A stretch of 44,785 bases of DNA, from contig DXEK01000190.1 in the NCBI GenBank assembly GCA_019115005.1, forward strand, positions 1 through 44,785, written 5' to 3'. Shown here one piece after another: positions 22,370 through 40,225 of the stretch (within the stretch, counting starts at the first letter, position 1; each line of letters begins with the position of its first letter). The position numbers and the translations under genes were made by a program. Below the pieces are notes generated by a model. It ran no database searches, was not told the origin of the DNA, and saw nothing but the letters and a program-made list of their open reading frames with translations. This DNA is from Candidatus Fusicatenibacter merdavium. Its GTDB lineage: Bacteria; Bacillota; Clostridia; Lachnospirales; Lachnospiraceae.

Positions 22370-23860
22370 ATGAGTCATTCCAGATCAAAAAAATCGAGAA
22401 AGAAAAATCCGGTTCCCGGTATTGTCCTCTCACTGCTGCTTCTGGTGGCCGCGGGCATTTTCCTCTGTCTGCTGTATCTGACACATATGCTTACGAACAC
22501 CTATCTGTTTGTGGCAGCGGGAGCATGTCTGATCGCTGTTCTGATCACCTTTTACCTCACCAGGAATTTCCGCAAGCGGATCCCCTTCGTCTTCGGAAGT
22601 CTGTGGTTCCTGCTCTGCATCGGAATCTTTTCCGTCGGAAGCATTTATCTGTACCGGACGCAGGCAGCGCTGCAGGCCATCGCAGGTACAGAGACGGAAA
22701 TCTCCAATGTCTCCGTCTATGTGCGGATAGATGATCCGGCACAAACACTGTCAGACGCGTCCGGCTATTCCTTCGGTATTCTCAGCACGCTTGACCGGGA
22801 AAACACCGATACAGTCGTGTCCAGGATCAACGAACAGCTGGGCGTCACCATCCAGACCGCCGAATTCGACGGACTGACACAGCTTGCCGACGGACTCCGG
22901 AACCATCAGGTAGACGCGCTGATCCTCAACGACGCTTACCTGGATCTGTACGAGGAGTTTGACGGATACACGGAATTCCCGTCACAGATTCGCGCGCTGA
23001 GCACAGAAAGCATCGAAACCGCAGTCCAGAATAATGAACTGACGTCCACGACGGTACAGGACCTGAACGATAACCCAGTCCTCAATATTTACATCAGCGG
23101 AAGCGATACGAGAGAATCCACTCTGCCGTCCCGCAGCCGCAGCGACGTCAACATTCTGGCAAGCATCAATACCCAGACCCATCAGGTACTCCTGATCTCC
23201 ACTCCGCGTGACTATTACGTGCCGCTGTCCATCTCCAACGGAGTTCCGGACAAGCTGACCCACGCCGGGATCTACGGAGTACAGGTCAGCATGGATACCC
23301 TGTCCATGCTCTACGAAGTTCCGATCGACTACTATTTCCGCGTAAACTTCAACGGTTTCGTGGACATCATCGATGCCCTCGGCGGAATCGACGTTTATTC
23401 CGACTACACCTTTGACAGTGGTAACGTCTCTGGCTATCACTTTAACGAAGGATGGAATTCCGTGAACGGCGAAGAGGCGCTTACCTTCTGCCGGGAACGT
23501 TACGCCTTCGCTTCCGGTGACAGACAGCGAGGAAAAAATCAGATGGCCGTGATCCAGGGTGTATTGAACAAAGCCACCAGTCCCGCGATCCTGTCCAACT
23601 ACACCTCCGTACTGGACAGCGCGGCAGGATGTATGGAGACAAACGTTCCCTACGATACCATCGCTGAGATCGTCCGCGATCAGCTTGCGGGCGGCGGCAG
23701 CTGGAACGTCGTCAGCTACAGCGTGGACGGTACCGGAGACAGCCAGGTGCCATACTCCATGAGTTCCTCCGTCTACGTCATGATCCCGGACACCTCCACC
23801 GTGGACCAGGCAAAATCCCTGCTGGCTCAGGTGGCGGCGGGCGAGACACTGCAGCAGTAA
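22370..23860 (+). CDS. LytR-CpsA-Psr (LCP) family glycopolymer transferase
   Basis: LCP proteins move undecaprenyl-linked glycopolymers such as teichoic acids or capsule onto peptidoglycan outside the membrane. The 496-residue protein has a very basic N-terminus, three membrane helices (~20-100), an accessory domain (~110-250, EFDGLTQLADGLRNHQVDALILND) and the LCP catalytic domain (~255-450) with NILASINTQTHQVLLISTPRDYYVPL, GGIDVYSDYTFD and EEALTFCRERYAF, including the key arginines. GAAAGGA lies ~12 bp upstream of the ATG. It is monocistronic, bounded by its own promoter and a double terminator. Polymers made with the rhamnose and uronic acid genes of this window are plausible substrates. 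Confidence 0.94.
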   Translation: MSHSRSKKSRKKNPVPGIVLSLLLLVAAGIFLCLLYLTHMLTNTYLFVAAGACLIAVLITFYLTRNFRKRIPFVFGSLWFLLCIGIFSVGSIYLYRTQAALQAIAGTETEISNVSVYVRIDDPAQTLSDASGYSFGILSTLDRENTDTVVSRINEQLGVTIQTAEFDGLTQLADGLRNHQVDALILNDAYLDLYEEFDGYTEFPSQIRALSTESIETAVQNNELTSTTVQDLNDNPVLNIYISGSDTRESTLPSRSRSDVNILASINTQTHQVLLISTPRDYYVPLSISNGVPDKLTHAGIYGVQVSMDTLSMLYEVPIDYYFRVNFNGFVDIIDALGGIDVYSDYTFDSGNVSGYHFNEGWNSVNGEEALTFCRERYAFASGDRQRGKNQMAVIQGVLNKATSPAILSNYTSVLDSAAGCMETNVPYDTIAEIVRDQLAGGGSWNVVSYSVDGTGDSQVPYSMSSSVYVMIPDTSTVDQAKSLLAQVAAGETLQQ

Positions 23861-24079: not shown

Positions 24080-24949
24080 TTACACATCGATCTCTTTCAG
24101 ATATCTCTCCAGCGCATCCTGCCAGGACGGAAGACGCTCAAAGCCATTCTCCGTCAGCTTCTCTTTGCTCATTCGGCTGTTGGAAGGCCGTTTCGCCTTC
24201 GCCGGATACTTGCTGCTGTCCACCGGCGTCACATGCACTTTCTCATAGACTGGATTGATCTTCGCTGCCTGGCGGAAAATCTCGCAGGCGAATTCGTACC
24301 AGGAGCAGAGTCCCTCGTTGGTCGCGTGGTATCTGCCGTACTTGTCCGTCTCCACCATATCCACCAGCAATCTCGCCAGGTCGTACGTATACGTCGGGGA
24401 ACCGATCTGGTCGTCCACAACTGTAAGTTCCTCGTGGGTCTTTCCAAGGTTCAGCATCGTCTTGATGAAATTCTTTCCGTTTACGCCGAATACCCAGGCG
24501 ATGCGGACAATGTAGTATTTCGTCAGATATTTCTCAACGGCAAGCTCGCCCTCATATTTTGTCTGGCCGTACACGTTCAGCGGATGACGCTCATCGTCCG
24601 GCTCCCACGGGCGCGTGCCCTGGCCGTCAAACACGTAATCTGTGCTGATATAGATCATCTTCAGGTCAAGCTCCGCGCAAACCTTCGCGATATTTTCCGT
24701 ACCGTTGGCATTGACCTGACGCACCTTGTCAATCTTGTCCTCGTCTTCCGCCAGATCCACGGCCGTCCACGCTGCGCAGTGGATCACTGCTTCCACATCG
24801 GACGCCCTGATCACACGTTCCACGGAAGCGGCGTCGGTGATATCCATCTCCTCGATGTCCACGCCGATCCCCGTGTGATTCCGCTTTGCAAGTTCATTCA
24901 TCACATCGTGGCCAAGCTGTCCCTTGACCCCTGTCACCAATACTCTCAT
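24080..24949 (-). CDS. rfbD: dTDP-4-dehydrorhamnose reductase
   Basis: RfbD (RmlD) carries out the last step of dTDP-L-rhamnose synthesis, reducing dTDP-4-keto-L-rhamnose with NAD(P)H. The N-terminus is a Rossmann fold, MRVLVTGVKGQLGHDV. VIHCAAWTAVDLAEDE, the catalytic triad region IYISTDYVFDG with YGQTKYEGE, and IVRIAWVFG follow. The start at the sixth track codon (24949) is chosen because GGAG lies 9 bp upstream and it aligns with family starts. It follows rfbA after ~67 bp on the same strand. rfbB and rfbC are not in the window, so the pathway is completed elsewhere. Confidence 0.93.
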   Translation of the reverse strand: MRVLVTGVKGQLGHDVMNELAKRNHTGIGVDIEEMDITDAASVERVIRASDVEAVIHCAAWTAVDLAEDEDKIDKVRQVNANGTENIAKVCAELDLKMIYISTDYVFDGQGTRPWEPDDERHPLNVYGQTKYEGELAVEKYLTKYYIVRIAWVFGVNGKNFIKTMLNLGKTHEELTVVDDQIGSPTYTYDLARLLVDMVETDKYGRYHATNEGLCSWYEFACEIFRQAAKINPVYEKVHVTPVDSSKYPAKAKRPSNSRMSKEKLTENGFERLPSWQDALERYLKEIDV

Positions 24950-25016
24950 CTCATTACTCTCCATTTCGATGTATCACGGCTCGCAGCGATTCCTCTGGCC
25001 GAACCGCTGCCACGGC

Positions 25017-25904
25017 TCAATACAGTTTCTCCAGATACTTCCCATTGAGCACATCCATCAGATAACTGCCATACTGATTCTTTTTCAGCGGCTGAATATC
25101 CTCCAGCAGCTGTTCCTTGCTGATCCAGCCGTTCAGATAGGCGATCTCCTCCAGACATGCGATTTTGCGGTGCTGATGCGTCTCCATGGTCTTGACGAAA
25201 TTCGTCGCCTCGACCAGAGACTCGTGAGTCCCCGTGTCCAGCCAGGTAAAGCCCTGTCCCAGAAGCTCCACATTCAACTCACCCGCCTCCAGATAAATCC
25301 TGTTCAGGTCGGTGATCTCCAACTCGCCTCTCGCGGACGGTTTCAACTCCTTCGCATACTGAACCACCCGGTTGTCATAAAAATACAGACCGGTGACACA
25401 GTAATTGCTCTTCGGGTGCTCCGGTTTCTCCTCGATGGAGACCGCCTTGCCCTCAGCGTCAAACTCCACGATTCCGAACCGCTCCGGATCATCCACATAA
25501 TATCCGAAGACCGTCGCGCCCTTCTCTCTGGACGCTGCACTCTTCAGGCGTTTGTTCAGGCCGTGGCCCGCAAAGATATTGTCGCCAAGGACCATCGCCA
25601 CAGAATCATCGCCGATAAACTCCTCGCCGATGATAAACGCCTGCGCCAGTCCGTCCGGCGACGGCTGCACGGCATAAGAAAGCGAAATACCGAACTGATG
25701 TCCATCTTTCAGCAACGCTTCAAACCGCGGCGTGTCATCCGGTGTAGAGATGATCAGGATATCGCGGATCCCCGCGTTCATCAGCACAGAGAGCGGATAA
25801 TAGATCATCGGTTTGTCATAGATCGGTAGCAGCTGCTTGGACGTTACCATCGTCAGCGGGTAAAGACGCGTACCGGAACCTCCGGCAAGAATAATTCCCT
25901 TCAT
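25017..25904 (-). CDS. rfbA: Glucose-1-phosphate thymidylyltransferase
   Basis: RfbA (RmlA) joins dTTP and glucose-1-phosphate, the first step of dTDP-rhamnose synthesis. The N-terminal nucleotide-binding motif [38 protein letters not shown] is diagnostic. [36 protein letters not shown] and [20 protein letters not shown] complete the family pattern. The 295-residue length is normal. AAAAGGAGAAAC lies before the ATG. It is the first gene downstream of a palindrome-containing 19 bp-spacer promoter, and the upstream neighbour encodes a MerR-type regulator, which suggests direct control. Confidence 0.96.
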
Positions 25905-26042: not shown

Positions 26043-26073
26043 ATTATAAAAGATGACGTAACGTCACTTTCAA
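26043..26073 (-). promoter_or_regulatory. MerR-type promoter for rfbA-rfbD (19 bp spacer with palindrome)
   Basis: On the minus strand: TTGAAA (26073-26068), a 19 bp spacer, then TATAAT (26048-26043). The spacer contains the perfect palindrome TGACGTtACGTCA (26054-26066), within a wider near-palindrome AAAGTGACGTTACGTCATCTTT. A 19-20 bp spacer with a central dyad is the hallmark of promoters under MerR-family control. It lies ~140 bp upstream of rfbA. Confidence 0.8.
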
Positions 26074-26102
26074 GTACTTTCTTTCTTTTTACGGATAATT
26101 CC

Positions 26103-26130
26103 GTAACTGTTCAGCGGACCGGACAGTTAC
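26103..26130. repeat. Dispersed palindrome copy 4
   Basis: GTAACTGTtcagcggaccggACAGTTAC has perfect 8 bp outer arms. It overlaps the final codon of the MerR-methyltransferase gene. Confidence 0.8.
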
Positions 26131-27308
26131 ACGATTCCCACAAATACACCGGCCTCTTTCGTAATGGAAAACACCCGGGAAGTCTTCTGCTCCACATAGT
26201 TCCGAAAATCCTTAAAACGCTCCAGCAGATACTGATTCTGATTCCCGTGGCAGGACAGCACATATTCCACCAGCGGCTCTGGCCGGTCCACCAGCAGCCG
26301 GTCCTCATAGAGCCGCATTTCCACCTCGCGAAAATACGGTTCCAGATACGTTCTCCCGTTCTCCAGCCCGAACTTTTCATACAGCTTATCCGCCGACAGC
26401 GTCACCCTGCTGTCGAATCCCTGTACCAGTTCGCTGATCTCCTTCATATGTCTGCTGCTGTAAGTGCTGCACACGAACACTCCGCTCTCCCGCAGCACCC
26501 TGCGCACTTCCCGGCAAACCTGAGAAATATCGTCACAGTAAAACAACATATGATTAGCGATGACCAAATCAAAAGAGTCCTCCGGAAACGGGATCTTGTG
26601 GGCATCCACTATTTCAAAGCGGAATCTTCCGTCGTCCCCGCCGATCTCCCTCCTGGCGTCCCGGAGCATTCCCTCGGAAATATCCGAGATGACGATCTCG
26701 ATGTCTTCCGGGATCCTGTCTCTGTTTTCTGTCCAGAGATTTCCATTTCCGCTCCCCAGTTCCAGCACCTTCATACCGTCGTGCAGTCCGCACTGCTCCA
26801 TGACCCATGGGAACCACCCCTGCGGATTCTGGGAATACAGGCTATGCAGGCGGATCCTGGCGGAAATATTGCTCGCATTCTGGTACTGGCTTTTCAGACT
26901 CTTCTCCATCCCTGTCAGACGGATCAACTCCAGCATCTGGCTCCAGTCGATCTCGTGCTCATTCTCAAGAGCCGCCGCCGTGTCCTGCACCGCGTGCTCC
27001 ATCAGCTGCAGCTGCTCGATCTTATCCTGGATCAGTTTCTGCTGCAGTTTCAGGGAATTCAGCATATAATGCCAGTCCATATCATTGATCGTCATCTCAC
27101 GGATATCATCCAGAGAGAACCCAAGATATTTCAACAGGAGGATCTGCTGCAGCCGGGCGAAGTCGGAGTCCGTATAATACCGGATCCCGGACTCGCTGAC
27201 CCGGGACGGCTTTAAAATATTCTTCTTATCATAAAACCGGATTGTTCTCACCGACACATTCGCCATACCGGCAAACTCCCCGGAAGTATAATACCCGTCC
27301 TTTGGCAT
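26127..27308 (-). CDS. MerR-family regulator fused to a SAM methyltransferase domain
   Basis: Residues 1-110 form a MerR DNA-binding head (YYTSGEFAGMANVSVRTIRFYDKKNILKPSRVSESGIRYYTDSDFARLQQILLLKYLGFSLDDI) and the start of its coiled coil (~75-120). Residues ~150-300 form a class I methyltransferase with motif I VLELGSGNGNLW, PEDIEIVISDISEGML, and motif IV/post-I FDLVIANHMLFYC. In ordinary MerR proteins the C-terminal part binds an effector; here a methyltransferase replaces it, so SAM or a methyl acceptor may be sensed. GGAGG precedes the ATG. A MerR-type promoter lies immediately downstream, in front of rfbA. PH-domain and dipeptidase genes are upstream on the same strand. Confidence 0.9.
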   Translation of the reverse strand: MPKDGYYTSGEFAGMANVSVRTIRFYDKKNILKPSRVSESGIRYYTDSDFARLQQILLLKYLGFSLDDIREMTINDMDWHYMLNSLKLQQKLIQDKIEQLQLMEHAVQDTAAALENEHEIDWSQMLELIRLTGMEKSLKSQYQNASNISARIRLHSLYSQNPQGWFPWVMEQCGLHDGMKVLELGSGNGNLWTENRDRIPEDIEIVISDISEGMLRDARREIGGDDGRFRFEIVDAHKIPFPEDSFDLVIANHMLFYCDDISQVCREVRRVLRESGVFVCSTYSSRHMKEISELVQGFDSRVTLSADKLYEKFGLENGRTYLEPYFREVEMRLYEDRLLVDRPEPLVEYVLSCHGNQNQYLLERFKDFRNYVEQKTSRVFSITKEAGVFVGIV

Positions 27309-27351: not shown

Positions 27352-27717
27352 TCATTCATCCTCGTGATATCCGGCATCGAGATCTTCCTGATAGAACATT
27401 CTCTTGGCCTGACGTTGCTCTTCGATCTTCTGGGAAAGCAGCTCACGCACTTCTCTTGCGTTTTTCACGCTCTCAATATCAAAGTCCTTCTTCGTCGCGT
27501 CGGAACTGCAGCAGTGGATGGTTCCCACGCCGAAGATCCGCTGTATGAAACTCTGGTCAAACGTAAGGTCCATGATCCGGTAAAGACGTACCTCATCCTC
27601 TCTCACATGGAGAAATCCCGTCCGGATAAACAGCCGCTCTTCTTCCAGCTCATACACGGTAAAGGACAGCGGAAGCCCGAAAATCGTCCGTTTCCTGTCG
27701 CGCCATAAAAGATCCAT
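27352..27717 (-). CDS. Small bacterial PH-domain protein
   Basis: This 121-residue protein has a bacterial PH-like domain: LSFTVYELEEERLFIRTGFLHVREDEVRLYRIMDLTFDQSFIQRIFGVGTIHCCSSD, the arrangement of bPH_2/DUF304 modules (YdbS/YdbT type). Unlike those it has no membrane helices. A charged helical tail (VRELLSQKIEEQRQAKRMF) follows. The function is unknown; PH-like modules generally bind protein or lipid partners. GGGAGG precedes the ATG. It lies between the pepV-like and MerR-fusion genes with short spacers, so co-transcription is likely. Confidence 0.8.
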   Translation of the reverse strand: MDLLWRDRKRTIFGLPLSFTVYELEEERLFIRTGFLHVREDEVRLYRIMDLTFDQSFIQRIFGVGTIHCCSSDATKKDFDIESVKNAREVRELLSQKIEEQRQAKRMFYQEDLDAGYHEDE

Positions 27718-29405: not shown

Positions 29406-29583
29406 CAACAGCGTCATCGTTTCTCCGACGGAACTGCCGCCAGTTCCAGGAACCATTCAGCCATAGCCGCGCCCTATTATTCTGAATTCAAAATAATTTA
29501 TTCGAATATTTAGACTATTCACTCTTTATTTTATGACTTTTTTCTTACATTTTTATATTTATTCTTATATTTCTTGTTTGTGC

Positions 29584-29612
29584 TTTACTTTTATCAGAAT
29601 TTAGGCTATGAT
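29584..29612 (+). promoter_or_regulatory. Sigma-A promoter for the surface protein
   Basis: TTTACT (29584-29589), 17 bp, TATGAT (29607-29612), in A+T-rich DNA. The start point would be ~45 bp before the ATG at 29664. Confidence 0.65.
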
Positions 29613-29663
29613 AAAAGTAGCAAAAAAGCTCGTGTAATTCCAGACAGAAGGGAGGTAGGAATT

Positions 29664-32453
29664 ATGAAGACCAGAACAAACAGACGTATTCTTTCTATTT
29701 TGTTGTCAATGCTGATGTGCATCTGGATGATGCAGCCGGTCCCGATCTGGGCGGCTGGCGAAGCAAGTCCGAACGATGCAACAGTCACAGTCTCCGGCAG
29801 CGCCGAAACGGACAGCGCTTCAGATGTTTTGCCGTCTTCGGACGACACCCAACCTGCTGATCAAACCGATACAGAAAGTAATCTGAAACTCCTGGACAGC
29901 ACCGGCGCTCCCGCAGAAAGCGGATACAGCGAAAAAGACAACCACATAACCGTGACAGAGAGCGGAACCTGGACCGCAGTCATCGATGGAAAAGAGTCCC
30001 CGACAGGTCTCTTGGTTGCAGCCGGATTCCACGGAATCCTCACCGTTCGGAACACAGACAAGGCATCCGGCGAAACCCTGGCGGAACGGATCTTCCTGTT
30101 CGACGGCACTGCCGCCGACGCGATCTCCCTTTCCGCTGTGACTGCATCGGTTTCCGGCTCTAAACTGACAGACAGCCAGGGGCAGAACGTTCCCGTGTTC
30201 CCCATGGAACACGCGGAGGGGATCACATCCCTGCACATTGACGACACATCATTTACGATGGGCGCAGTACCTTCCAGCGCAGCGCTCTATCTCGTACCGA
30301 AGGCAGCGGATCACACCGTCACCTTCTCCCGCGGAGACTCCGCACAGGAAACTCTGAAAATCACCTGGAACGGAAGCGCATTTGCACTCCGGACCCAGAA
30401 GGAAAACGAATGGACCATTGCCCCGTCCATGAAAGACTGGACCTACGGACAGACGGCATCCACGCCTGCAGGACAGGCGAAATACGGCGAAGTACTCTTC
30501 ACCTATGCTGCATCTCCGGACGGGACATTCGGCACAGAAGTTCCCTCCAATGCAGGCGCCTGGTATCTGAAAGCGGAAGTGACGGCGACTGACGATCATA
30601 CCGGACTTTCCGAGATCGTTCCGTTCACGATCCATCAGGCAGAAAGCACTGTCGCGATCACCACAGAATCCTTGGACAAGATCTACGACGGAAATCCCGT
30701 AGCAGCACCTGAAGTTCAGAAGACAGGAAGCACAAACGACGTTCACTTTCTCTGGCAGCAAAAGAATGCTTCCCAGTGGAATGACCTGACGGAAGTTCCT
30801 GCTCACGCCGGAGAATACAAAGTCATCGCCACGGTAGAGGGCGATACCAATCACACTTCCGCATCGGCGGAAAAAACCTTTACCATCACGGCAGCAGAAA
30901 ACACCTGGACGGAACCGCCGGCTGTCTCCCACACAGCCTACGGAACCGCTCCCGCTCCGACGGCGAAAGCCGCATTCGGCGCCGTACAGTTTACCTACAG
31001 CAGCACAAAAGACGGCGCCTACGATGAACTGCCCGCGGACGCACCGGCAGGCACCTGGTACCTGAAAGCCGAAGTTCCTGCAACAGGGGACTACAGCGGA
31101 CTCAGCGCTATCCTGGAATTCCGGATCACCAAGGCTGCCGCACCGGCGCTGACGCTTCCGGATCCTCTCACTGCGGAACAGGATTCTCTCCTTTCCACAC
31201 TGACACTTCCGGGCGGCTGGACCTGGGCGGACGGCAGCCAGAAGGTTTCTGCCGGAAACAACGGATACCCGGCACGTCTCACAGTAGACGACCGGAACTA
31301 TGATTACACCTCCGTGGACGGCTACAACGCAGACGGCCACTATGTGGAACGTCTCATCCCGGTAGCTGTGACCCGGGGCAAAAACACATGGACCGAGTCA
31401 CTCACCATCAAAGACTGGATCTACGGACAGAAACCCTCAACGCCGACTGCAAAAGCCGCACACGGGGACGTGACTTTTACCTACAGCGCTGACATGGACG
31501 GAACCTTCACCGAAGAAGTTCCGACTCAGGCCGGCATCTGGTACGTAAAGGCCACCGTTCCGGCGAGCGACGCTTACGAAGAACTCACTCAGATCGCAGA
31601 ATTTGTGATCCATAAAGCGGATCCTTCTCCCAAGCGTCCCGATCTGGAAGCCTTCTATGGACAAAAGCTTAACAGCATCAGCCTTCCGAAAGGCTTCACC
31701 TGGGATTATCCGGATCTGCCGGTTGGAGATGTCGGTAATCAGTTGTTTACCGTCACCTACACTCCGGAGGATACCGCCAATTATGAAACCCTGACGAACT
31801 TCACGCTCGCAGTAGTCGTGAAACAGGCAGAGAACACATGGACCGAGGAACCGGCAATCAAAGGATGGACCTACGGAAGCAAGGCAAACACCCCGACTGC
31901 GAAGACAGCGTTCGGAACGCCTTACTTCCTCTACAGTGACAAAGCCGACGGAACCTACACATCCACAGTTCCTGCAAACGCAGGTACCTGGTATCTGAAA
32001 GCAGTCACAGACGGAACAGACAATTACAAAGAACTCACCAGCAAAGCAGTCGCATTCACCATAGAACCGAAATCTTACGAGGAAAAAGGTTCCATCACCA
32101 TTCCGAAGATCGACAGCAGCACAGATATTTCCAAACTGGAGATCAAGGACGGTGACACAACACTGAAACAGGGAACGGACTACGAAGTCAAAAAGACACT
32201 GAAAGACAAGACCATGTCCGTGACGATCACCTTCAAAGGCAACTACAAAGGCACCGTGGTAAGAACTTACACAGCTACCGAGAAAGAGATCGAAGCACAC
32301 AAAGCCGCACAGCAGGTAAAGAGCGTACAGACCGGAGACAGAAACATGACGGAAGTCTGGGCAGCCCTGACGATCCTCTCACTGGCCGCCGTACTGCTCC
32401 TGATCTGCATCCTGCGGGTGAGAAAAAAGAACCGGGAATTGACGGACTTCTGA
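29664..32453 (+). CDS. Large repetitive surface protein with C-terminal membrane/sorting anchor
   Basis: The ATG at 29664 follows GGGAGGTAGG and opens a clear signal peptide (KTRTNRRILSILLSMLMCIWMMQPVPIWAA), giving 929 residues. Four ~78-residue repeats of the form 'ENTWTE..i..W.YG..p.tptakaafG...FtYs...dGt....vP..AGtWYLKA.V.at..Y..L....F.I' occur at about residues 246-324, 410-487, 571-650 and 721-799. They alternate with MBG/YDG-type bacterial Ig-like modules (YDGNPVAAPEVQKTGS...HAGEYKVIATVEGD). The C-terminus is VQTGDRN, a hydrophobic helix, then RVRKKNREL, like the 'xxTGD' sorting signals of Lachnospiraceae. Probably a wall-anchored adhesin or structural protein; ligand unknown. Confidence 0.88.
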   Translation: MKTRTNRRILSILLSMLMCIWMMQPVPIWAAGEASPNDATVTVSGSAETDSASDVLPSSDDTQPADQTDTESNLKLLDSTGAPAESGYSEKDNHITVTESGTWTAVIDGKESPTGLLVAAGFHGILTVRNTDKASGETLAERIFLFDGTAADAISLSAVTASVSGSKLTDSQGQNVPVFPMEHAEGITSLHIDDTSFTMGAVPSSAALYLVPKAADHTVTFSRGDSAQETLKITWNGSAFALRTQKENEWTIAPSMKDWTYGQTASTPAGQAKYGEVLFTYAASPDGTFGTEVPSNAGAWYLKAEVTATDDHTGLSEIVPFTIHQAESTVAITTESLDKIYDGNPVAAPEVQKTGSTNDVHFLWQQKNASQWNDLTEVPAHAGEYKVIATVEGDTNHTSASAEKTFTITAAENTWTEPPAVSHTAYGTAPAPTAKAAFGAVQFTYSSTKDGAYDELPADAPAGTWYLKAEVPATGDYSGLSAILEFRITKAAAPALTLPDPLTAEQDSLLSTLTLPGGWTWADGSQKVSAGNNGYPARLTVDDRNYDYTSVDGYNADGHYVERLIPVAVTRGKNTWTESLTIKDWIYGQKPSTPTAKAAHGDVTFTYSADMDGTFTEEVPTQAGIWYVKATVPASDAYEELTQIAEFVIHKADPSPKRPDLEAFYGQKLNSISLPKGFTWDYPDLPVGDVGNQLFTVTYTPEDTANYETLTNFTLAVVVKQAENTWTEEPAIKGWTYGSKANTPTAKTAFGTPYFLYSDKADGTYTSTVPANAGTWYLKAVTDGTDNYKELTSKAVAFTIEPKSYEEKGSITIPKIDSSTDISKLEIKDGDTTLKQGTDYEVKKTLKDKTMSVTITFKGNYKGTVVRTYTATEKEIEAHKAAQQVKSVQTGDRNMTEVWAALTILSLAAVLLLICILRVRKKNRELTDF

Positions 32454-32616: not shown

Positions 32617-33363
32617 TTATTTCACAGTCACTTTCAACTGTGCGGTATTCGATGCATTTCCGTCGGAGTCAATGACATGATATCCCAGTATGTATTCTCC
32701 CGGAGTATTGGTGTCCGCCTCCCCGGAGATCTGGATTCCCTGGTACAACTCGTCGCGGCTGTCTTTGTCGTCTGAAATGTCCTGAACGTAACTCAGCGGA
32801 TTGAATTCCGCTCCGCGCTCTACCTCAACGGAATACTGCGTCAGATAAAACCGCGGACTCGCGGCAGAAAGCGCCGCGATCGCGGCCTCGTTCTGCGCCT
32901 GTCCGTCGTCTGCGGCAGTCTGTGCATCTGCAGACGCATCTGTATTCTGAGCATCTGTTCCCTGGGCGTCAGTGCCTGCCGCATCCGCATTCGGGGCATC
33001 CTCCTCAGCGCCTGCTGCCTGAGCGGCAGCGCTGGCGTCTGTGGTATACTGTACCTTTCTTGTCTCTTTGGTCACATTGTTTTTGCTGTCCTTCGCCACA
33101 TAGATGACAGATGCCTCCGTCCCGTCAGCGTTGGGAATAATACTCTCGATCGTAACGGTGTCTGTCACATCTCCGTCACGGTTATCCGTCGCAGTGACGC
33201 CTTTCATCAGCACAGAACTGTCCGTGCCGGCTACGTAAGTAACCGTTTCCTCCGGGATCGTGATCTCCGGGCCGTTCCGGTCTTCTCCGACATAAACCAC
33301 TACGTTTCCGGCCAGCAGAACCACACAGGCCAGAAACAATATTGCTACAAGTCCTTTTCTCAT
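32617..33363 (-). CDS. Membrane-anchored DUF5011-type Ig-like protein (BY-kinase module)
   Basis: An N-terminal membrane helix (LVAILFLACVVLLAGNVVVYV) is followed by an Ig-like DUF5011/HYR-type domain (GPEITIPEETVTYVAG...VTATDNRDGDVTDTVTIESI..., YVAKDSKNNVTKETRKVQY). Next come an Ala/Asp/Gln-rich linker (~115-165, repeated TDAQ/NTDA) and a second Ig-like domain (PRFYLTQYSVEVERGAEFNPLSYV...GEYILGYHVIDSDGNASNTAQLKVTV). It lies 3 bp downstream of the tyrosine kinase gene, so it is the last gene of that operon. A paralogue heads the other kinase module. A role in holding or sensing exported polysaccharide is inferred from context only. Confidence 0.78.
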   Translation of the reverse strand: MRKGLVAILFLACVVLLAGNVVVYVGEDRNGPEITIPEETVTYVAGTDSSVLMKGVTATDNRDGDVTDTVTIESIIPNADGTEASVIYVAKDSKNNVTKETRKVQYTTDASAAAQAAGAEEDAPNADAAGTDAQGTDAQNTDASADAQTAADDGQAQNEAAIAALSAASPRFYLTQYSVEVERGAEFNPLSYVQDISDDKDSRDELYQGIQISGEADTNTPGEYILGYHVIDSDGNASNTAQLKVTVK

Positions 33364-33366
33364 CTC

Positions 33367-34071
33367 TTACTTCTCCTGTTTCCTCGCGTAATCCCCGTAG
33401 TACTTTCCGTAATTCTTTCCGTACTTTCCATAGGCCTGCTTCTGCATGTCCACTTTATTCAGTACTACGCCAAGAATCGGACAGTTACTCTTCTCCAGCT
33501 GTGCCTTGACCTCCTGGGCAAAGCGGTAGCTGATCACACCGGATTCGATCACCAGAATCGCCCCGTCGCACTCTTCCGCGATCACCGCGCTGTCGATTAC
33601 GTTTCCGAGCGGCGGCGTGTCAATGATCACATAATCATAAACCTTACGCACCGCTTTCAGGAACGAGCGGAAATTTTTTCCGCCCAGCAATTCCGCCGGA
33701 TTCGGCGGAAGCGGACCGGAATAGATCAGATACAGTTTCGGAATATTGGTAGAATATACCACATCCTGTAATTCCGACTGTCCCGTAAGATAATGCGTCA
33801 GGCCCTTCACCGTCTGCTGGCCGGCTTTCGTGCTTCCGAGAAGCACGGATTTTCTGAGATCCGCGTCTATGAAAAGAACGTTCTTTCCACTCTCCGCCAG
33901 AGAAATCGCCAGCTGAAGGCTGACGCTGCTTTTGCCCTCATTCGGTGTACAGCTTGTGATCGCGATCACCTTTTTATCGTCTCCGCAGAACTGAAGGTTT
34001 GCCCGGAGAGATTTGTACGCCTCTTCAATCTGGTAATTATTTTTTTCTTTCTTTACAGTAACCTGATTCAC
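33367..34071 (-). CDS. cpsD: CpsD/CapB-type BY tyrosine kinase
   Basis: This 234-residue bacterial tyrosine kinase uses ParA-like Walker motifs: ITSCTPNEGKSSVSLQLA (A), VLFIDADLRKS (A') and YDYVIIDTPPLGNVID (B). The C-terminus is a tyrosine cluster (YGKYGKNYGKYYGDYARK) that is the autophosphorylation tail. It works with the preceding Wzz-type membrane activator and is dephosphorylated by the CpsB-type phosphatase two genes upstream. Together they control exopolysaccharide chain length and export. It lies 15 bp after the Wzz gene and 3 bp before the DUF5011 gene. Confidence 0.95.
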   Translation of the reverse strand: MNQVTVKKEKNNYQIEEAYKSLRANLQFCGDDKKVIAITSCTPNEGKSSVSLQLAISLAESGKNVLFIDADLRKSVLLGSTKAGQQTVKGLTHYLTGQSELQDVVYSTNIPKLYLIYSGPLPPNPAELLGGKNFRSFLKAVRKVYDYVIIDTPPLGNVIDSAVIAEECDGAILVIESGVISYRFAQEVKAQLEKSNCPILGVVLNKVDMQKQAYGKYGKNYGKYYGDYARKQEK

Positions 34072-34086
34072 GACAATTCCCTCCCT

Positions 34087-34821
34087 TTACCGTCTTCTCT
34101 TCGTTTTGCTTTTTCTGGATTTTTTGGTTTCCCCTTCCGCCAGCGGGATCGTTCCGAGCGTACTCAGTCCCAGATAGCGCTCCACATCTTCCGATGTACG
34201 GATCGTATCATTCATCAGATAGGAAACCAGAATGATAGCTACTGCCGCAACAAATCCGAGAACAGCGCCCATCAGTGTATTTTTCATCGTGGAAGGACCG
34301 ACCGGAGTTTCCGGAATGTTCGCTTCCTCAAAGACCGTAACCGCCTCAATGTTCATAACACTCTGAATCTCATCAGCTGCAAAATCTCTCACGGAATTTG
34401 CAATGTCGCAGGCGAGATAAGGATCCGCATCCTCTACGTGAATTGTGATGATACGAGTATCCGTGGCTGTTTCCACCGAAATTTTTGCCAGAAGCTCCGA
34501 GGACTTCATATCAAGGTCCAGATTACTAATCACAGACTCCGCTACCTGACGGCTCTGGATCATCTGGGCACAGTCCTGCGTCAGCTGCTCGCTGGCCTGC
34601 AGATCGCTGCTGGTCACCGTATCGCTGTTCTGCTGTGTAAGAATATACATTCTCGTCGTCGACTGATACTGCGGGGTCAGGAAAATCCTGGTAGCCAGCA
34701 TTGCCGCCAGTCCGACCGCCGCTGCCGCAAGCACGATCACAAGTGCCTTGCTCCAGAGTACATGAAAAAGTTCCAGTAAATTAATCTCAACTTCATCGTT
34801 GTTCTGCTGTGTTGTTTCCAT
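34087..34821 (-). CDS. cpsC: Wzz/CpsC-type chain-length determinant (kinase activator)
   Basis: A cytoplasmic start (EVEINLLELFHVLWSKALVIVLAAAAVGLAAMLATRIFL) gives the first helix. An extracytoplasmic Wzz domain follows (YQSTTRMYILTQQNSDTVTSSDLQASEQLTQD... ), then the proline-rich segment before the second helix (PETPVGPSTMKNTLMGAVLGFVAAVAIILVSYLMNDTI), and a basic tail (KSRKSKTKRRR). In Gram-positive bacteria this protein is separate from its kinase and its C-terminal juxtamembrane part activates it. The adjacent BY kinase is the partner. 244 residues, normal for CpsC/YveK. Confidence 0.94.
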   Translation of the reverse strand: METTQQNNDEVEINLLELFHVLWSKALVIVLAAAAVGLAAMLATRIFLTPQYQSTTRMYILTQQNSDTVTSSDLQASEQLTQDCAQMIQSRQVAESVISNLDLDMKSSELLAKISVETATDTRIITIHVEDADPYLACDIANSVRDFAADEIQSVMNIEAVTVFEEANIPETPVGPSTMKNTLMGAVLGFVAAVAIILVSYLMNDTIRTSEDVERYLGLSTLGTIPLAEGETKKSRKSKTKRRR

Positions 34822-34831
34822 TGTTCCTCTC

Positions 34832-35557
34832 CTATCCTATGTTTTCTGTGATTTTCTGTGGATTGCGGATGAAAATGCGTTCCGTATAAGCTTTTCCCAT
34901 TTTTTTCTCCATATATTCCACACATGGACCTAAATTGGGCGTGCGCTTGTTCGTTCTGTGGCAGTCGGAACCGACAAAGTCCAGCATATCGTTCTTCATC
35001 AGCTTTTTGCAGAACCGCCTGATCTGGAATCCTTCCTCTCCCAGGATACTCCCGGCGTTCACCTGTAAATACGCGCCGATTTCCCTGAGTGCTTCCAGAT
35101 TTTCAAAATCCTTCCGGATCTGCGGATACCGCTCCACATGGGCCACGATCGGAATAAAACCGTGGCTGACCAGATCATAGATCCGCTCCCTTGCAAAAGA
35201 AAAGTCTGTTGCCTGGGAAAATTCTGTCAGAACATAATCAGAACCGGCCATCGTCGGGCGCTCCCTGCTGCTCAGCGTCTCCACCATGGACATATTTGCA
35301 TGAAACTCGCAGCCCAGATACAAGCGCAGGTCACTGACGATCGTCGCTTCCGACTTTTCTTTTAAAAGCGCAAACTGACGCTCGATTTTTTCTTTTGGAG
35401 TCTCAAACATTTCGCGGCGATAGTGAGGCGTCAGAATAATAGAACGGACACCGTCCTCATACTCCATCTGCAGCATCTTCAGCGCCATCTCCATCGTTCT
35501 GGCGCCGTCGTCCACTCCGGGTATGATGTGACAATGTATATCGAATAGATTTTTCAT
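34832..35557 (-). CDS. cpsB: CpsB/YwqE-type tyrosine-protein phosphatase (PHP fold)
   Basis: This metal-dependent phosphatase of the PHP superfamily removes phosphate from the BY-kinase tyrosine tail. DIHCHIIPGVDDGARTMEMALKML carries the first metal ligands, IILTPHYRREMFE the next, IPIVAHVERYPQIRKDFENLEALREIGAYLQVNAGSILG the third and DFVGSDCHRTNKRTPNL the last. 241 residues, as in Streptococcus CpsB. It is the first gene of a cpsB-cpsC-cpsD-DUF5011 operon with its own promoter ~40 bp upstream and AAGGTGAAG as ribosome binding site. Confidence 0.95.
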   Translation of the reverse strand: MKNLFDIHCHIIPGVDDGARTMEMALKMLQMEYEDGVRSIILTPHYRREMFETPKEKIERQFALLKEKSEATIVSDLRLYLGCEFHANMSMVETLSSRERPTMAGSDYVLTEFSQATDFSFARERIYDLVSHGFIPIVAHVERYPQIRKDFENLEALREIGAYLQVNAGSILGEEGFQIRRFCKKLMKNDMLDFVGSDCHRTNKRTPNLGPCVEYMEKKMGKAYTERIFIRNPQKITENIG

Positions 35558-35590
35558 ACATCTTCACCTTAAAAGAGTCTTTTCCTTCTA

Positions 35591-35619
35591 TTAATATCAT
35601 TTATGTCAAAAAAAGTCAA
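35591..35619 (-). promoter_or_regulatory. Sigma-A promoter for the cpsB-C-D operon
   Basis: On the minus strand TTGACT (35619-35614), 17 bp, TATTAA (35596-35591). The leader is ~30 bp. Confidence 0.65.
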
Positions 35620-35649
35620 GATATCTGTAGTACTTTCTCATGTCACCGT

Positions 35650-35673
35650 AACCGTCCAGCCAGTTGAATGGTT
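35650..35673. repeat. Dispersed palindrome copy 7 (diverged)
   Basis: AACCGTCCAGCCAGTTGAATGGTT has AACC/GGTT outer and CA/TG inner pairing. It lies ~30 bp upstream of the cpsB operon promoter. Confidence 0.5.
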
Positions 35674-35812
35674 TCAGCCTCCGGACGACTTTCGTCAGAT
35701 GCTGCCGCATGAAAACCTCAGAATTTTCTCCGGACCTCTCTCCAGCAGGATTTCAGACGCCGCCAGGCCGGCCACACCCCTGGACAAAAGTAAAGATCTT
35801 AAATACCGGGGA

Positions 35813-37063
35813 TCAATCTCTTCGGAAGATATCCCTCGTGTATACTTTCTCTTTTACATCATCCAGGCACTTGTCATATCTGTTCGCGATAATAGCCTGC
35901 GACATCTCCTTGAATTTCTTCAAGTCGTTCACCACTGTGCTTCCAAAGAATGTGCAGCCATCTTCCAGAGTCGGCTCATAGATCACCACGGTGGCTCCCT
36001 TTGCCTTGATCCTCTTCATGACCCCCTGGATACTGCTCTGACGGAAGTTATCCGAATTACTCTTCATAGTCAGTCGATACACACCAATTACACATTTCTT
36101 TTCCTCATTAGCGCTGTAATCGCCGCGGTTGAAATAGTCATAGTAACCAGCCTGTTTCAGTACACGGTCAGCAATAAAATCTTTCCTGGTCCTATTACTT
36201 TCCACGATCGCCTCTATCAGATTCTCAGGTACATCCTGATAATTAGCCAGCAGCTGTTTGGTATCTTTCGGCAAACAATATCCGCCATAACCGAAACTTG
36301 GATTATTGTAATGGGTGCCGATTCTTGGATCCAGACAAACCCCTTCAATGATCTGCCTCGTATCCAGTCCTTTGCTTTCCGCATAAGTATCAAGTTCGTT
36401 GAAATACGCAACTCTTAATGCCAGATAGGTATTCGCAAACAGTTTCACCGCCTCGGCTTCTGTGAAGCCCATAAACAATGTGTCGATATTTTCCTTGACA
36501 GCACCTTCCTGGAGCAGTCCGGCAAACACATGTGCCGCTTCAACCAGCCGCGTATCATTCACATCGGTGCCGACGATTATTCTGCTGGGATACAAATTAT
36601 CGTACAATGCCTTCGACTCGCGTAAAAATTCAGGGCTGAAGATGATATTCTTACTTCCCGTCTTTTCCCTGATACTCTTGGTATATCCGACCGGAATAGT
36701 GCTTTTAATGACCATGATAGCTTCCGGATTGTACTGCATCACAAGATCAATCACAGCTTCAACTGCGCTGGTGTCAAAATGCTGTGTAGTCGAATCGTAA
36801 TTCGTAGGTGCTGCAATAACAACGAAATCCGCAGCACTGTACGCCGTCTTTGCATCAAGCGTTGCGGTCAGATCCAATTCTTTTTCCGCCAAATACTTTT
36901 CTATGTACTCATCCTGAATCGGAGATTTTCTTTGGTTAATCAGTTCAATCTTTGACGGTACGATGTCCACAGCGTAAACCTTATGATGCTGAGACAGCAG
37001 TGTAGCAATCGAAAGGCCCACATATCCGGTTCCTGCTACAGCAATTGTATACTTCTTATCCAT
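35813..37063 (-). CDS. ugd: UDP-glucose/GDP-mannose-family nucleotide-sugar dehydrogenase
   Basis: The enzyme oxidises a UDP-sugar to the uronic acid with two NAD+. The Rossmann motif [68 protein letters not shown] and the catalytic cysteine in [15 protein letters not shown] are all present. The start at 37063 (MDKKYTIAV) with AGAGGAAG upstream is preferred to the longer track start, giving 416 residues. The sequence is of the Ugd/RkpK type found in capsule clusters. It lies between the two BY-kinase modules and should feed uronic acid into their polymer. Substrate UDP-glucose is likely but UDP-ManNAc-type oxidation is not fully excluded. Confidence 0.9.
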
Positions 37064-37355
37064 AACGTACTTCCTCTTTTTCTCCGGCATAGCCGGAATA
37101 TTTTCTATCATCGAATATCAGAAACCATGAAAGCAGCTCTTTATAAAAATTCAACTCGCTCATCTAAAGTTTCGTTATCTAAGATAAAGAACTCACCCAA
37201 AACAATCTGAGTTTTCTTCCCACTTGATCGCCGTTCGGTTGGTTTTCTGGCCAGGCTGTTCATTCCCTGTACGCTTTATCGCAAGTTCCATTTCCCGTCT
37301 GGCTGCCTGTTCTGGCTTATTTTACCATCTTTCTGCATTTTTTGGGAGCAGAGAA

Positions 37356-37757
37356 ATGTTTTTGTGTCCAGAAATTCTTTGCCAGGGTAAAAATGCAGGC
37401 AGATATCATATCCCCACAGACGAGAGCTTTGACGATGTCTATGATCTGCAATTTACCAGTCACATGAAAAGAGCACTCTGCAGTCACCTAAAATTTCTCT
37501 GTTCTTCACAAAATCAAATAATATATTTTTGTGAACACAGTATGTGCCAGCATGAAACCCTTTTATACTTGAAATCTTCTGAATTATTCCAACAAGTCAT
37601 AAAAGAATACTATCCGACAATTATGTTCTCACTTTATCATGAAGCCGCAGGGCAGTCAAGTTTGTTCCCTCTTTCTCATCGGGCCATGTACCTTTTTCTT
37701 TGTGCAAGCTATAGCTCTTGTTCTCACATTTTTCTTTTCCTATGCTTTCATCACTAA
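37356..37757 (+). pseudogene. Uncertain ORF or gene remnant
   Basis: The frame from ATG 37356 has GGGAGCAGAGAA before it. Its first ~95 residues look protein-like (GKNAGRYHIPTDESFDDVYDLQFTSHMKRAL..., SSELFQQVIKEYYPTIMFSLYHEAA). The last ~35 residues are Ser/Phe/Leu runs typical of a wrong frame. It is opposite in direction to all neighbours. No family was recognised; a truncated or decayed gene is the best reading. Confidence 0.25.
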
Positions 37758-37895
37758 AATACAGTTCCAGAATTTCTTTCAATTTATTTATATGTTTGGC
37801 GTGAGTGCTTTCTGCGCTTTCCGCTCAGCCGTTCGACCTGCAGAAAGGTTCCTTTCCGTCGGGTGCTGTCACGGACTGTATATATATAGGCTGAC

Positions 37896-37935
37896 GAAAG
37901 CCGCCCGGAGCTGACGGCATCCGTGTGCGGCTTTC
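37896..37935. terminator. Hairpin after the second cpsB-type gene
   Basis: GAAAGCCGC...GCGGCTTTC has 9 bp perfect arms and a 22 nt loop, ~45 bp downstream of the cpsB-type stop at 37981. There is only a short T run on either side, so it is a weak terminator or a stabilising 3' hairpin. Confidence 0.5.
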
Positions 37936-37980
37936 TGTTATTCAGAGCTGTGTTTGAAAGTATCTGTGAAGATTGATGAT

Positions 37981-38748
37981 TTATATTTCTCTTAAGATCA
38001 CAAGAATACTGGCCAAATGTTGCTTGTATTTACGGCGGACTTCAGGATTTTGGCAGGATTTCTCTCGAGCAGAATTTCCGACGCGTTTCCCCCCGTAATA
38101 CAGATCCAGGATCCGGGCGGTTTCTTCCAGATCCGACGTGCGCAGGACCGGGTCGTGGGCGTCGGAGGCCACCAGTCCGGCAAGCCCCATGGAAAGAAGC
38201 CAGTCTGCGGTGCGGGCGGCTCCCCGGCCGAGCTGTCCAAGAATGCTGCCCCGGTTCACCTGGAGCAGGATTCCTTCTCTGTAGAATTCTTTCAGTCTCT
38301 CCGGATCCCGCTTGGCGAATTCATACCGTTCCGGATGGGCCAGGATCAACTGGTAACCCAGCCTCTGCAGTCTTTTCAGGCGTTCCAGCGCCAGACTCCC
38401 GGACGTATCAAACAGGAATTCCACAAGAAGATACCTGCCTCCGCCGATCCCCGGAAGCGGTCTCTGTTCCGCAAGTCTGAGAAAGCTTCTGTTTACCATC
38501 AGCTCCATTCCGCTGTACACATTTACGGGGATCTTATGTTCTTCTAACAGACGCCGGAATTCCATAAGCCGCCTGTCATACAGGTTCAGATATTCTTCCG
38601 GATCACAGTGTGAAAAATCCCCGTGGGATGTCGCCGCCATGGCCCGGACGCCGCTGTCCGCGGCGATCCTGGCCATTTCGAGCGCATCCTCCGGGGACTG
38701 AGCTCCATCGTCTATTCCCGGCAGAATATGAATGTGAAGATCAATCAT
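37981..38748 (-). CDS. Second CpsB/YwqE-type tyrosine-protein phosphatase
   Basis: This PHP-fold phosphatase is paralogous to the one at 34832-35557: MIDLHIHILPGIDDGAQSPEDALEMARIA, LVEFLFDTSG, LILAHPERYEFAKRDPERLKEFYREGILLQVNRGSILGQLG, LVASDAHDPVLRT. The track start is 71 codons too early; ATG 38748 gives 255 residues, begins at the family start and has GGAGG 7 bp upstream. It overlaps the Wzz-kinase fusion gene by 8 bp, so it is translationally coupled and most likely dephosphorylates that kinase. Confidence 0.93.
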   Translation of the reverse strand: MIDLHIHILPGIDDGAQSPEDALEMARIAADSGVRAMAATSHGDFSHCDPEEYLNLYDRRLMEFRRLLEEHKIPVNVYSGMELMVNRSFLRLAEQRPLPGIGGGRYLLVEFLFDTSGSLALERLKRLQRLGYQLILAHPERYEFAKRDPERLKEFYREGILLQVNRGSILGQLGRGAARTADWLLSMGLAGLVASDAHDPVLRTSDLEETARILDLYYGGKRVGNSAREKSCQNPEVRRKYKQHLASILVILREI

Positions 38749-40225
38749 GTTCTGCCTCCTCTCCATACGGCCGGGCCGTTTCACCGGAATGGGATCTGTA
38801 ACCGTAGCGGCCGTATTTTCCATATCCGTAACCGTAACGGCCATAGCCGTATTCGCTGACCGCCTCCGGGTATGCGTTAAACACATATCCGAAGAAACGG
38901 GCTTTCCGGTCTCGCAGGAAAGAAATCCCTTCCTGGATCCTCCTCTGGGATACCGTGTCATACTTCACCACATACAGGATCGCGTCCGCATACTCCGCCA
39001 GCATTCCCACGTCCTGGAACATCTCACAGGGCGGCGTGTCGATCACTATGTAATCCATTTCTCTCTTCAACGCCTGCAGGAACTCTCCGACCCGCAGATT
39101 GCTGAGCACGGAGGCCGGCTGCTTCACCGGCTGGCTGCTTCCGACAAACCAGATACCACTCTCCTTGATCTTCTGAAAACAGTCCGCCACCGGCCGGTCT
39201 CCGTCGGCGATCGCCTGTAGACCTCCGCCGCCCCGGACGCCAAGCGCCGCCGCATCCTGCTGTTTTCTCAGATCTCCGTCGATCAGTACGACACGCTTTC
39301 CCTTCGCTGCAAGGATCTCGCAAAGATTGACCGCCAGCGTGGTCTTTCCCTCGCCGGAGGCAGTGCCCGCGACCAGAAGAATCTTCCAGTCCTCTTTCTC
39401 CATCGCATTCTCCAGGCGGAGTTCCAACGCCCGGAGGCTTTCCCTGTATCCGTAGGACAGCCGCTGATCCAACACGGAAATCTTCTGCTTCCGATTCTGT
39501 TTTCTGGCCTTGAAACGCACCTGCGGGATCATCGCCAGACAGCGGAGACTTGTGATCTTTTTCATCTCCTCCGGCGTCCGGGCAGTTTTCCTTGCCAGCG
39601 CCATCAGGCCAAGAAGAAAAATCCCGAGAAGCCCTCCGGCCGCGGCTCCCATCGCCAGACTTCTCTTCGTACCGACTCTGTTAAACGGCTCTGTGGGAGT
39701 CTCCGGCTCATCCAGATAATTAAACCGGATATCTCCGAGGACGAACCGGGCGGTTTCCGGATAGATCTCCAGCGCGGCATCCAGGATCGTCCTGGCGTCC
39801 TGCGGGTCCGGACTTTCCGCGCGCATTGTCACCACGTTGGAATTCTCCACCGTCTCCGCGGTGATCGTCCCGTTCAGGCGGTCCGTTCCCAGCCGTTCCA
39901 GCAGCGTGCTCCGGAAAAAGCTGCTGTCCAGAATATAAGGAAACGTCCTGGACAGCTGATCCGCCGTGCTGCTGTCGTAATAGAAACTGTAGCTTCCGCT
40001 CCCCTCTTCCCCTGTGGCCACCGTGAACGTGGCGCTGCAGGCGTACAGGGGCTGGGTACGGAATCTCTGGAACGCGTAAAATCCGCCTGCTCCCAGCACA
40101 ACGAGGATCAGAACCAGCCACCACATTCTGGAGAAAATCCTCCAGAAGCTTTTCAAAAGCAGGCCCAGGTCAATTTCGATCTCGTCATCGTCTCTGTTTT
40201 CCAGTTCTCTTCTCCCGTCTTCCAT
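38741..40225 (-). CDS. Wzz-BY-kinase fusion (chain-length determinant plus tyrosine kinase)
   Basis: Residues 1-230 form a Wzz membrane part: acidic start, helix 1 (WWLVLILVVLGAGGFYAF), extracytoplasmic domain, proline segment, helix 2 (SLAMGAAAGGLLGIFLLGLMAL). Residues ~270-490 form a BY kinase: LLVAGTASGEGKTTLAVNL (A), KRVVLIDGDLRKQ (A'), MDYIVIDTPPCEMF (B), then a Tyr/Gly tail (YGYGRYGYGYGKYGRYGYRS). The single-chain arrangement is the rule in Proteobacteria (Wzc) and less common in Firmicutes, where activator and kinase are usually separate as in the other module here. It follows a kinase fragment left by a deletion and precedes the CpsB-type gene by overlap. Confidence 0.93.
   Translation of the reverse strand: MEDGRRELENRDDDEIEIDLGLLLKSFWRIFSRMWWLVLILVVLGAGGFYAFQRFRTQPLYACSATFTVATGEEGSGSYSFYYDSSTADQLSRTFPYILDSSFFRSTLLERLGTDRLNGTITAETVENSNVVTMRAESPDPQDARTILDAALEIYPETARFVLGDIRFNYLDEPETPTEPFNRVGTKRSLAMGAAAGGLLGIFLLGLMALARKTARTPEEMKKITSLRCLAMIPQVRFKARKQNRKQKISVLDQRLSYGYRESLRALELRLENAMEKEDWKILLVAGTASGEGKTTLAVNLCEILAAKGKRVVLIDGDLRKQQDAAALGVRGGGGLQAIADGDRPVADCFQKIKESGIWFVGSSQPVKQPASVLSNLRVGEFLQALKREMDYIVIDTPPCEMFQDVGMLAEYADAILYVVKYDTVSQRRIQEGISFLRDRKARFFGYVFNAYPEAVSEYGYGRYGYGYGKYGRYGYRSHSGETARPYGEEAEHD

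Follow-up and report, generated by a model that had tools for sequence, protein, structure and literature searches.

A MerR-methyltransferase fusion as the predicted regulator of the dTDP-L-rhamnose operon in Fusicatenibacter and related Lachnospiraceae

Introduction

What does a methyltransferase do at the end of a MerR-type regulator, and which genes does such a protein control? Both questions are raised by a locus in Candidatus Fusicatenibacter merdavium, where a gene for a protein of this kind lies directly in front of two genes for dTDP-L-rhamnose synthesis. Rhamnose-rich wall polysaccharides shape the encounters of Gram-positive bacteria with phages, host immunity, and neighbours. In the open-access literature we found no description of a MerR-methyltransferase fusion, nor of a dedicated rml regulator in Lachnospiraceae. 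Here we take the 44,785-nucleotide stretch of DNA that holds the locus (the window), identify the protein, the promoter, and the operator that it is predicted to bind, follow all three through related genomes, and weigh which signal the methyltransferase domain may receive.

The fusion protein and the operon behind it

The regulator gene and its parts, with their predicted roles, are as follows.

26127..27308, minus strand: MerR-methyltransferase fusion (MerR-MT), 393 amino acids, predicted regulator, from profile matches and a structure model
27093..27308, minus strand: N-terminal MerR winged helix-turn-helix, residues 1-72, with the recognition helix at about 20-28 and putative specificity residues V20 and R21
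26958..27074, minus strand: long helix, residues 79-117, equivalent of the MerR dimerisation helix in the monomer model
26127..26816, minus strand: class I SAM-methyltransferase domain, residues 165-393, replacing the MerR effector domain, with motif I E183-x-G185-x-G187-x-G189 and D209

A sequence-only reading of the region had described this gene as a MerR head joined to a class I methyltransferase, and the profile matches bear it out: MerR_1 covers residues 7-72 (E 2e-19) and Methyltransf_11 residues 182-280 (E 4e-19), the head matching both PF13411 (69.9 bits) and PF00376 (46.2 bits) above cut-off. The AlphaFold model (mean pLDDT 85.5) contains a winged helix-turn-helix whose second helix spans residues 20-28, a long helix, and a class I methyltransferase. 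Two traits of the MerR family, the N-terminal winged helix-turn-helix and the long helix that follows it (79-117 in the monomer model), are present. Between merR-MT and the gene for the PepV dipeptidase, a bPH_2 (bacterial PH-domain) protein is encoded at 27352-27717 of the window; tblastn gave no match to this protein among the closest relatives, in which PepV sits directly upstream of the fusion.

The predicted target comprises two adjacent genes on the same strand as merR-MT.

25017..25904, minus strand: rfbA/rmlA, glucose-1-phosphate thymidylyltransferase, heading the operon; matches TIGR01207 with 492 bits, above cut-off
24080..24964, minus strand: rfbD/rmlD, dTDP-4-dehydrorhamnose reductase, next in the operon; matches TIGR01214 with 333 bits, above cut-off

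Neither rmlB nor rmlC was found in the 96.8%-complete draft genome (G000), and six genomes of the same genus carry both, located elsewhere in the genome. Their absence may reflect either an assembly gap or a real loss; in the second case rfbA-rfbD would lack the middle steps of the pathway. A capsule-type locus with Wzz, CpsD-like ATPases, two CpsB/CapC proteins, and a UDP-sugar dehydrogenase occupies 32617-40225 of the window, and a LytR-CpsA-Psr protein is encoded near the rfb genes at 22370-23860, a neighbourhood consistent with the use of rhamnose in a surface polysaccharide. At 29574-32453 the window also encodes a secreted-looking protein of 959 amino acids without a Pfam match.

A MerR-type promoter upstream of rfbA-rfbD

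The elements of the predicted control region are these.

26043..26073, minus strand: MerR-type promoter of rfbA-rfbD, a 31-bp layout common to 73/80 orthologous loci
26068-26073, minus strand: -35 box of this promoter, TTGAAA
26049-26067, minus strand: 19-bp spacer between the -35 and -10 boxes
26043-26048, minus strand: -10 box of this promoter, TATAAT
26054..26066, no strand assigned: core dyad TGACGT-t-ACGTCA, the predicted operator core, unique in the genome, its arms covarying symmetrically across relatives
26050-26070: 21-bp operator register, centred on 26060 (-24)

Read on the minus strand from 26073 to 26043, the sequence is TTGAAA GTGACGTTACGTCATCTTT TATAAT, and the claimed arrangement of TTGAAA-N19-TATAAT with a perfect dyad near the middle of the spacer is therefore correct. 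The centre of the perfect 13-bp dyad falls 2 bp upstream of that of the spacer, at position -24 when the -10 hexamer is numbered -12 to -7, so that a third family trait, a dyad centred near -24 in a spacer of 19 or 20 bp, is present at this promoter. In a survey of 28 confirmed MerR promoters, all had spacers of 19 or 20 bp, and BmrR kinks its DNA at -24 (PMC7722741).

The 13-mer TGACGTNACGTCA has one exact copy in the 2.7-Mb genome, at the rfbA-rfbD promoter, and the reversed control pattern has none. When the whole composite was searched genome-wide with up to two mismatches, the rfbA promoter was the single match with zero mismatches, and the mismatched matches stood at background level. 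The distance from the stop codon of MerR-MT downstream to the site is 53 bp, and the gap lies between co-directional rather than divergent genes. An Rfam scan of the rfbA leader (E up to 1) returned neither a SAM riboswitch nor any other RNA family, and an RNA element in the leader was rejected on this ground.

The site is conserved and travels with the rml genes

The sequence-only reading would have fallen had the dyad been absent beside orthologous genes. We examined 80 genome loci encoding proteins 61-90% identical to MerR-MT. Their genera include Fusicatenibacter, Blautia, Coprococcus, Faecalicatena, Anaerobutyricum, and Mordavella, and at most of these loci rmlA follows the fusion. The composite promoter is present in 73, and the reading withstands this test; read in register, its spacer is always 19 bp and its dyad centre always at -24. 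The loci share the layout TTG-N4-TGAC(G/C)T-n-A(C/G)GTCA-N5-TATAAT, with the 21-bp operator consensus AAGGTGACST-n-ASGTCACCTT, and none of 60 shuffled control sequences reached the site threshold. Seven loci had no site within the sequence examined; one of them (L040) looks to be the same locus as that of genome G131, where the site is 10.7 kb away.

The first gene behind the site varies: it is rmlA, rmlB (L045, L078, L084, L095, L178, L185), or rmlC (L183). The site also heads the units MerR-MT-rmlA-rmlC-rmlB (L173), MerR-MT-rmlA-rmlB-rmlD (L174), and rmlB-MerR-MT (L170, L171), and at five loci (L103, L180, L183, L185, L207) it stays at rml with MerR-MT located elsewhere. Judged by this placement, the site belongs to the rml unit and not to the regulator gene. 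In one genome of the source genus with split rml genes (G002), two sites are found, before rmlD and before rmlB-MerR-MT. Because the same-genus rmlB and rmlC clusters located elsewhere have no site, control in this genus appears limited to rmlA-rmlD.

These arrangements bear on a different view of the inverted repeat, namely that it is the intrinsic terminator of merR-MT and resembles a promoter by chance. A terminator scan does list GTGACGTTACGTCAT followed by CTTTT as terminator-like. However, relatives keep the -35 and -10 boxes at a fixed spacing of 19 bp, and the element remains at rml when merR-MT is elsewhere and is found upstream of merR-MT as well. With conserved boxes and a site linked to rml rather than to merR-MT, we rejected the terminator, to which we give virtually no credence.

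Co-occurrence of regulator and site across Lachnospiraceae

Of 396 genomes of the family, 79 carry MerR-MT. A strict composite, defined as at most one mismatch within 15 kb of MerR-MT, accompanies it in 55 of these, on the same strand as MerR-MT in 55/55, and weaker or more distant sites, added by scoring and inspecting the remaining loci, raise the number to about 73 of 79. Since rmlA is found in 349 of the 396 genomes, at least 270 of the 317 without MerR-MT carry it, and yet only two of these (G316 and G143) have an rml-type site at rml; for both, genomes of the same genus with MerR-MT exist (G061 and G365, respectively).

Dyads of the form TGAC-N5-GTCA in 19-bp spacers are common to other MerR promoters, and one may ask whether a different MerR protein of the genome, instead of the fusion, binds the site at rfbA. 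In genomes without MerR-MT, 18 of the 37 site loci lie directly before a different merR gene, because of which we regard the general pattern as a true MerR signature, with the flanks and the score separating the rml class from the rest. Such sites have other flanks and scores no higher than about 33, compared with a median of 47, and the rml-type site is almost confined to genomes with MerR-MT, both of which argue against a second MerR protein at this promoter. Separate MerR genes of the family in the loci L301-L337 have their own dyads in 19-bp spacers directly upstream, such as TTGCTTGTGACGCTGCGTCATGAATTATAAT, and represent uncharacterised MerR regulons.

Half-site changes track the recognition helix

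Residue 20 of MerR-MT varies with the half-site: valine or isoleucine occurs mainly with TGACG, leucine mainly with TGACC, and lysine (together with K21) with TGCCC. For four operator positions, residue 20 has the highest mutual information of the whole protein. A tree built solely from the methyltransferase domain puts residues 21 and 20, in this order, at the top of about 390 columns for changes that coincide with half-site changes, residue 20 sharing its rank with residue 348 for the right half; the P values of about 1e-5 to 1e-3 are uncorrected, come from few independent events, and are inflated by relatedness. Symmetric double changes to TGCCC..GGGCA are seen at L080, L084, L190-L193, and L196, and the dyad arms pair in 442 of 516 cases against a shuffled maximum of 431. 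Few independent changes underlie this analysis, so we regard the link between half-site changes and recognition-helix residues 20-21 as strongly supported though short of conclusive. That the half-site changes follow residues of MerR-MT itself also counts against another MerR protein as the one that binds, which we consider very unlikely.

Conservation, co-occurrence, the movement of the site with rml, and the co-variation of residues 20-21 agree with the proposal that the adjacent fusion regulates this MerR-type promoter. On these comparisons, we consider it highly probable that MerR-MT acts as a MerR-type regulator dedicated to the dTDP-L-rhamnose operon, the predicted DNA recognition and MerR-type geometry being well supported. 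This judgement covers the assignment of regulator, operator, and target.

A predicted mechanism of activation

A bound MerR dimer can hold a promoter off and then activate it on a signal. By analogy, a MerR-MT dimer would occupy the 21-bp operator, which fills the 19-bp spacer between the two boxes of the rml promoter, and recognition-helix residues V20 and R21 would contact the half-site TGACG. Once the C-terminal domain had taken up the appropriate state, the spacer would be kinked and untwisted, allowing RNA polymerase to use the otherwise misaligned -35 and -10 boxes and turning rfbA-rfbD on. From the geometry and what is known of the MerR family, we infer activation by DNA distortion, as opposed to repression. 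The methyltransferase domain, standing in place of the usual ligand-binding domain, probably holds SAM or SAH and may read a second small molecule, be it one of the pathway's dTDP-sugars or the balance between SAM and SAH.

What the methyltransferase domain may sense

The fold of the domain is Rossmann-like, SAM motif I and an acidic motif II are both present, and E183, G185, G187, G189, and D209 are near-invariant in an alignment of 57 sequences. This conservation makes binding of SAM likely and would allow either SAM or SAH. Stand-alone relatives carry an LYHV motif, which in the MerR-MTs of the rml clade reads LFYC, with tyrosine in place of histidine; Y257 is found in 47 of the 48 Lachnospiraceae MerR-MTs of the alignment, and a sister clade linked to DegT genes mostly keeps H257. 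In some small-molecule methyltransferases the histidine of the LYHV-type motif is the catalytic base, and its replacement hints at altered or lost catalysis, so that we lean weakly towards sensing over catalysis as the role of the domain. Its model has small-molecule methyltransferases as nearest folds, and the strict conservation of four further residues, N147, W165, S352, and N356, suggests a specific second ligand.

One candidate signal is the SAM/SAH status: as a sensor that binds SAM or SAH, the domain would tie rhamnose synthesis to methylation capacity. The near-invariance of motif I and D209, the precedent of the SAH-responsive regulator SahR, and a leader free of SAM riboswitches and other Rfam families are in keeping with it. 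Against it, no methionine or SAM-cycle gene of the genome has the site, the rfbA promoter being the only clear one (a SAM-cycle regulon was rejected accordingly), and the sister clade points to sugars instead of SAM. We regard this signal as a tentative candidate.

The sister fusions come from another Clostridia family (L228-L240, L247), are 31-40% identical to MerR-MT, and mostly have one or two DegT/DnrJ/EryC1 aminotransferases encoded behind them, as checked with Pfam in L229, L236, L238, and L240 and elsewhere inferred from gene size and order. In the PDB, these aminotransferases are closest to nucleotide-sugar enzymes of the QdtB/WbpE type. Dyads in 19-bp spacers, in the same register, precede the fusion in L231-L234, L236, and L247 and the aminotransferase in L238 and L239; the scan returned many AT-rich chance palindromes, from which we kept those with this spacer and register before or within a MerR-MT/DegT operon, and the dyads are suggestive, not statistical. 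L228 and L230 have other neighbours, in L228 genes for arginine deiminase and ornithine carbamoyltransferase. The sister clade widens the theme to nucleotide-sugar control.

Mainly because this clade adjoins nucleotide-sugar aminotransferases, we rate a sugar nucleotide as highly as SAM status. On this view the ligand of the domain would be one of the pathway's nucleotide sugars, SAM or SAH serving as structural cofactor, and dTDP-sugar synthesis would be under transcriptional feedback. Nucleotide-sugar genes accompany both fusion clades (rml in one, QdtB/WbpE-like DegT aminotransferases in the other), and the four conserved residues fit such a ligand; on the other side, the domain is not recognisably closest, by sequence or fold, to known dTDP-sugar methyltransferases, and its assignment as one by homology was found unsupported. 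This signal, too, is a tentative candidate.

The sequence-only reading had inferred a switch coupling SAM status or small-molecule methylation to dTDP-rhamnose synthesis. The MerR-type promoter with the adjacent fusion as its regulator stands; the coupling to SAM or methylation is a candidate only, and the replaced histidine and the aminotransferase-linked sister clade make a sugar-nucleotide signal equally compatible. A MerR activator whose methyltransferase has been re-purposed, perhaps with altered catalysis, to bind both SAM and a sugar nucleotide, and which gives direct transcriptional feedback on dTDP-sugar synthesis in several Clostridia families, is a picture that we put forward speculatively.

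Significance

Several consequences follow for the study of MerR regulators and of surface polysaccharides:

(i) With the operator and the specificity residues in hand, the regulon may be predicted from sequence in Blautia, Fusicatenibacter, and their relatives.

(ii) The natural variants V/I20, L20, and K20-K21, with TGACG, TGACC, and TGCCC, respectively, offer a ready series for working out the rules of DNA recognition by MerR proteins.

(iii) An enzyme fold as a MerR effector domain would add a new type of signal input to a textbook family, and a MerR protein responding to SAM and a sugar nucleotide would, if true, be a new sensor class as well as a regulator dedicated to the dTDP-rhamnose pathway.

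Comparison with known systems

At the level of DNA, the closest likeness is to CueR on the copA promoter of E. coli, which has the same 19-bp spacer, 21-bp operator, and operator centre relative to both hexamers. CueR has no enzyme domain, unlike MerR-MT; it senses Cu(I) through a short metal-binding C-terminus. In overall build, the fusion resembles BmrR, Mta, and TipA, which combine a MerR head, a long dimerisation helix, and a large C-terminal domain, and BmrR, MtaN, and TipA are among the best PDB sequence matches of its head. Those proteins have drug-binding effector folds, whereas MerR-MT has a class I methyltransferase and sugar-nucleotide synthesis as its predicted target.

The effector domain shares its fold and SAM motif with class I small-molecule methyltransferases (UbiE/BioC-like; TmtA, GtmA, RebM, and AtmM folds), from which MerR-MT differs by its fusion to a DNA-binding domain and, in the rml clade, by the change from LYHV to LFYC. 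Stand-alone methyltransferases of about 260-275 amino acids (L241-L246), 31-41% identical to the domain, lack the MerR head and occur in varied contexts; enzymes of this type are a possible source of the effector domain. SahR is likewise a bacterial regulator, reported to respond to a SAM-cycle metabolite, SAH (PMC8877191), but it belongs to the ArsR family, acts as a repressor, and controls the SAM cycle, whereas MerR-MT is a predicted activator of sugar synthesis.
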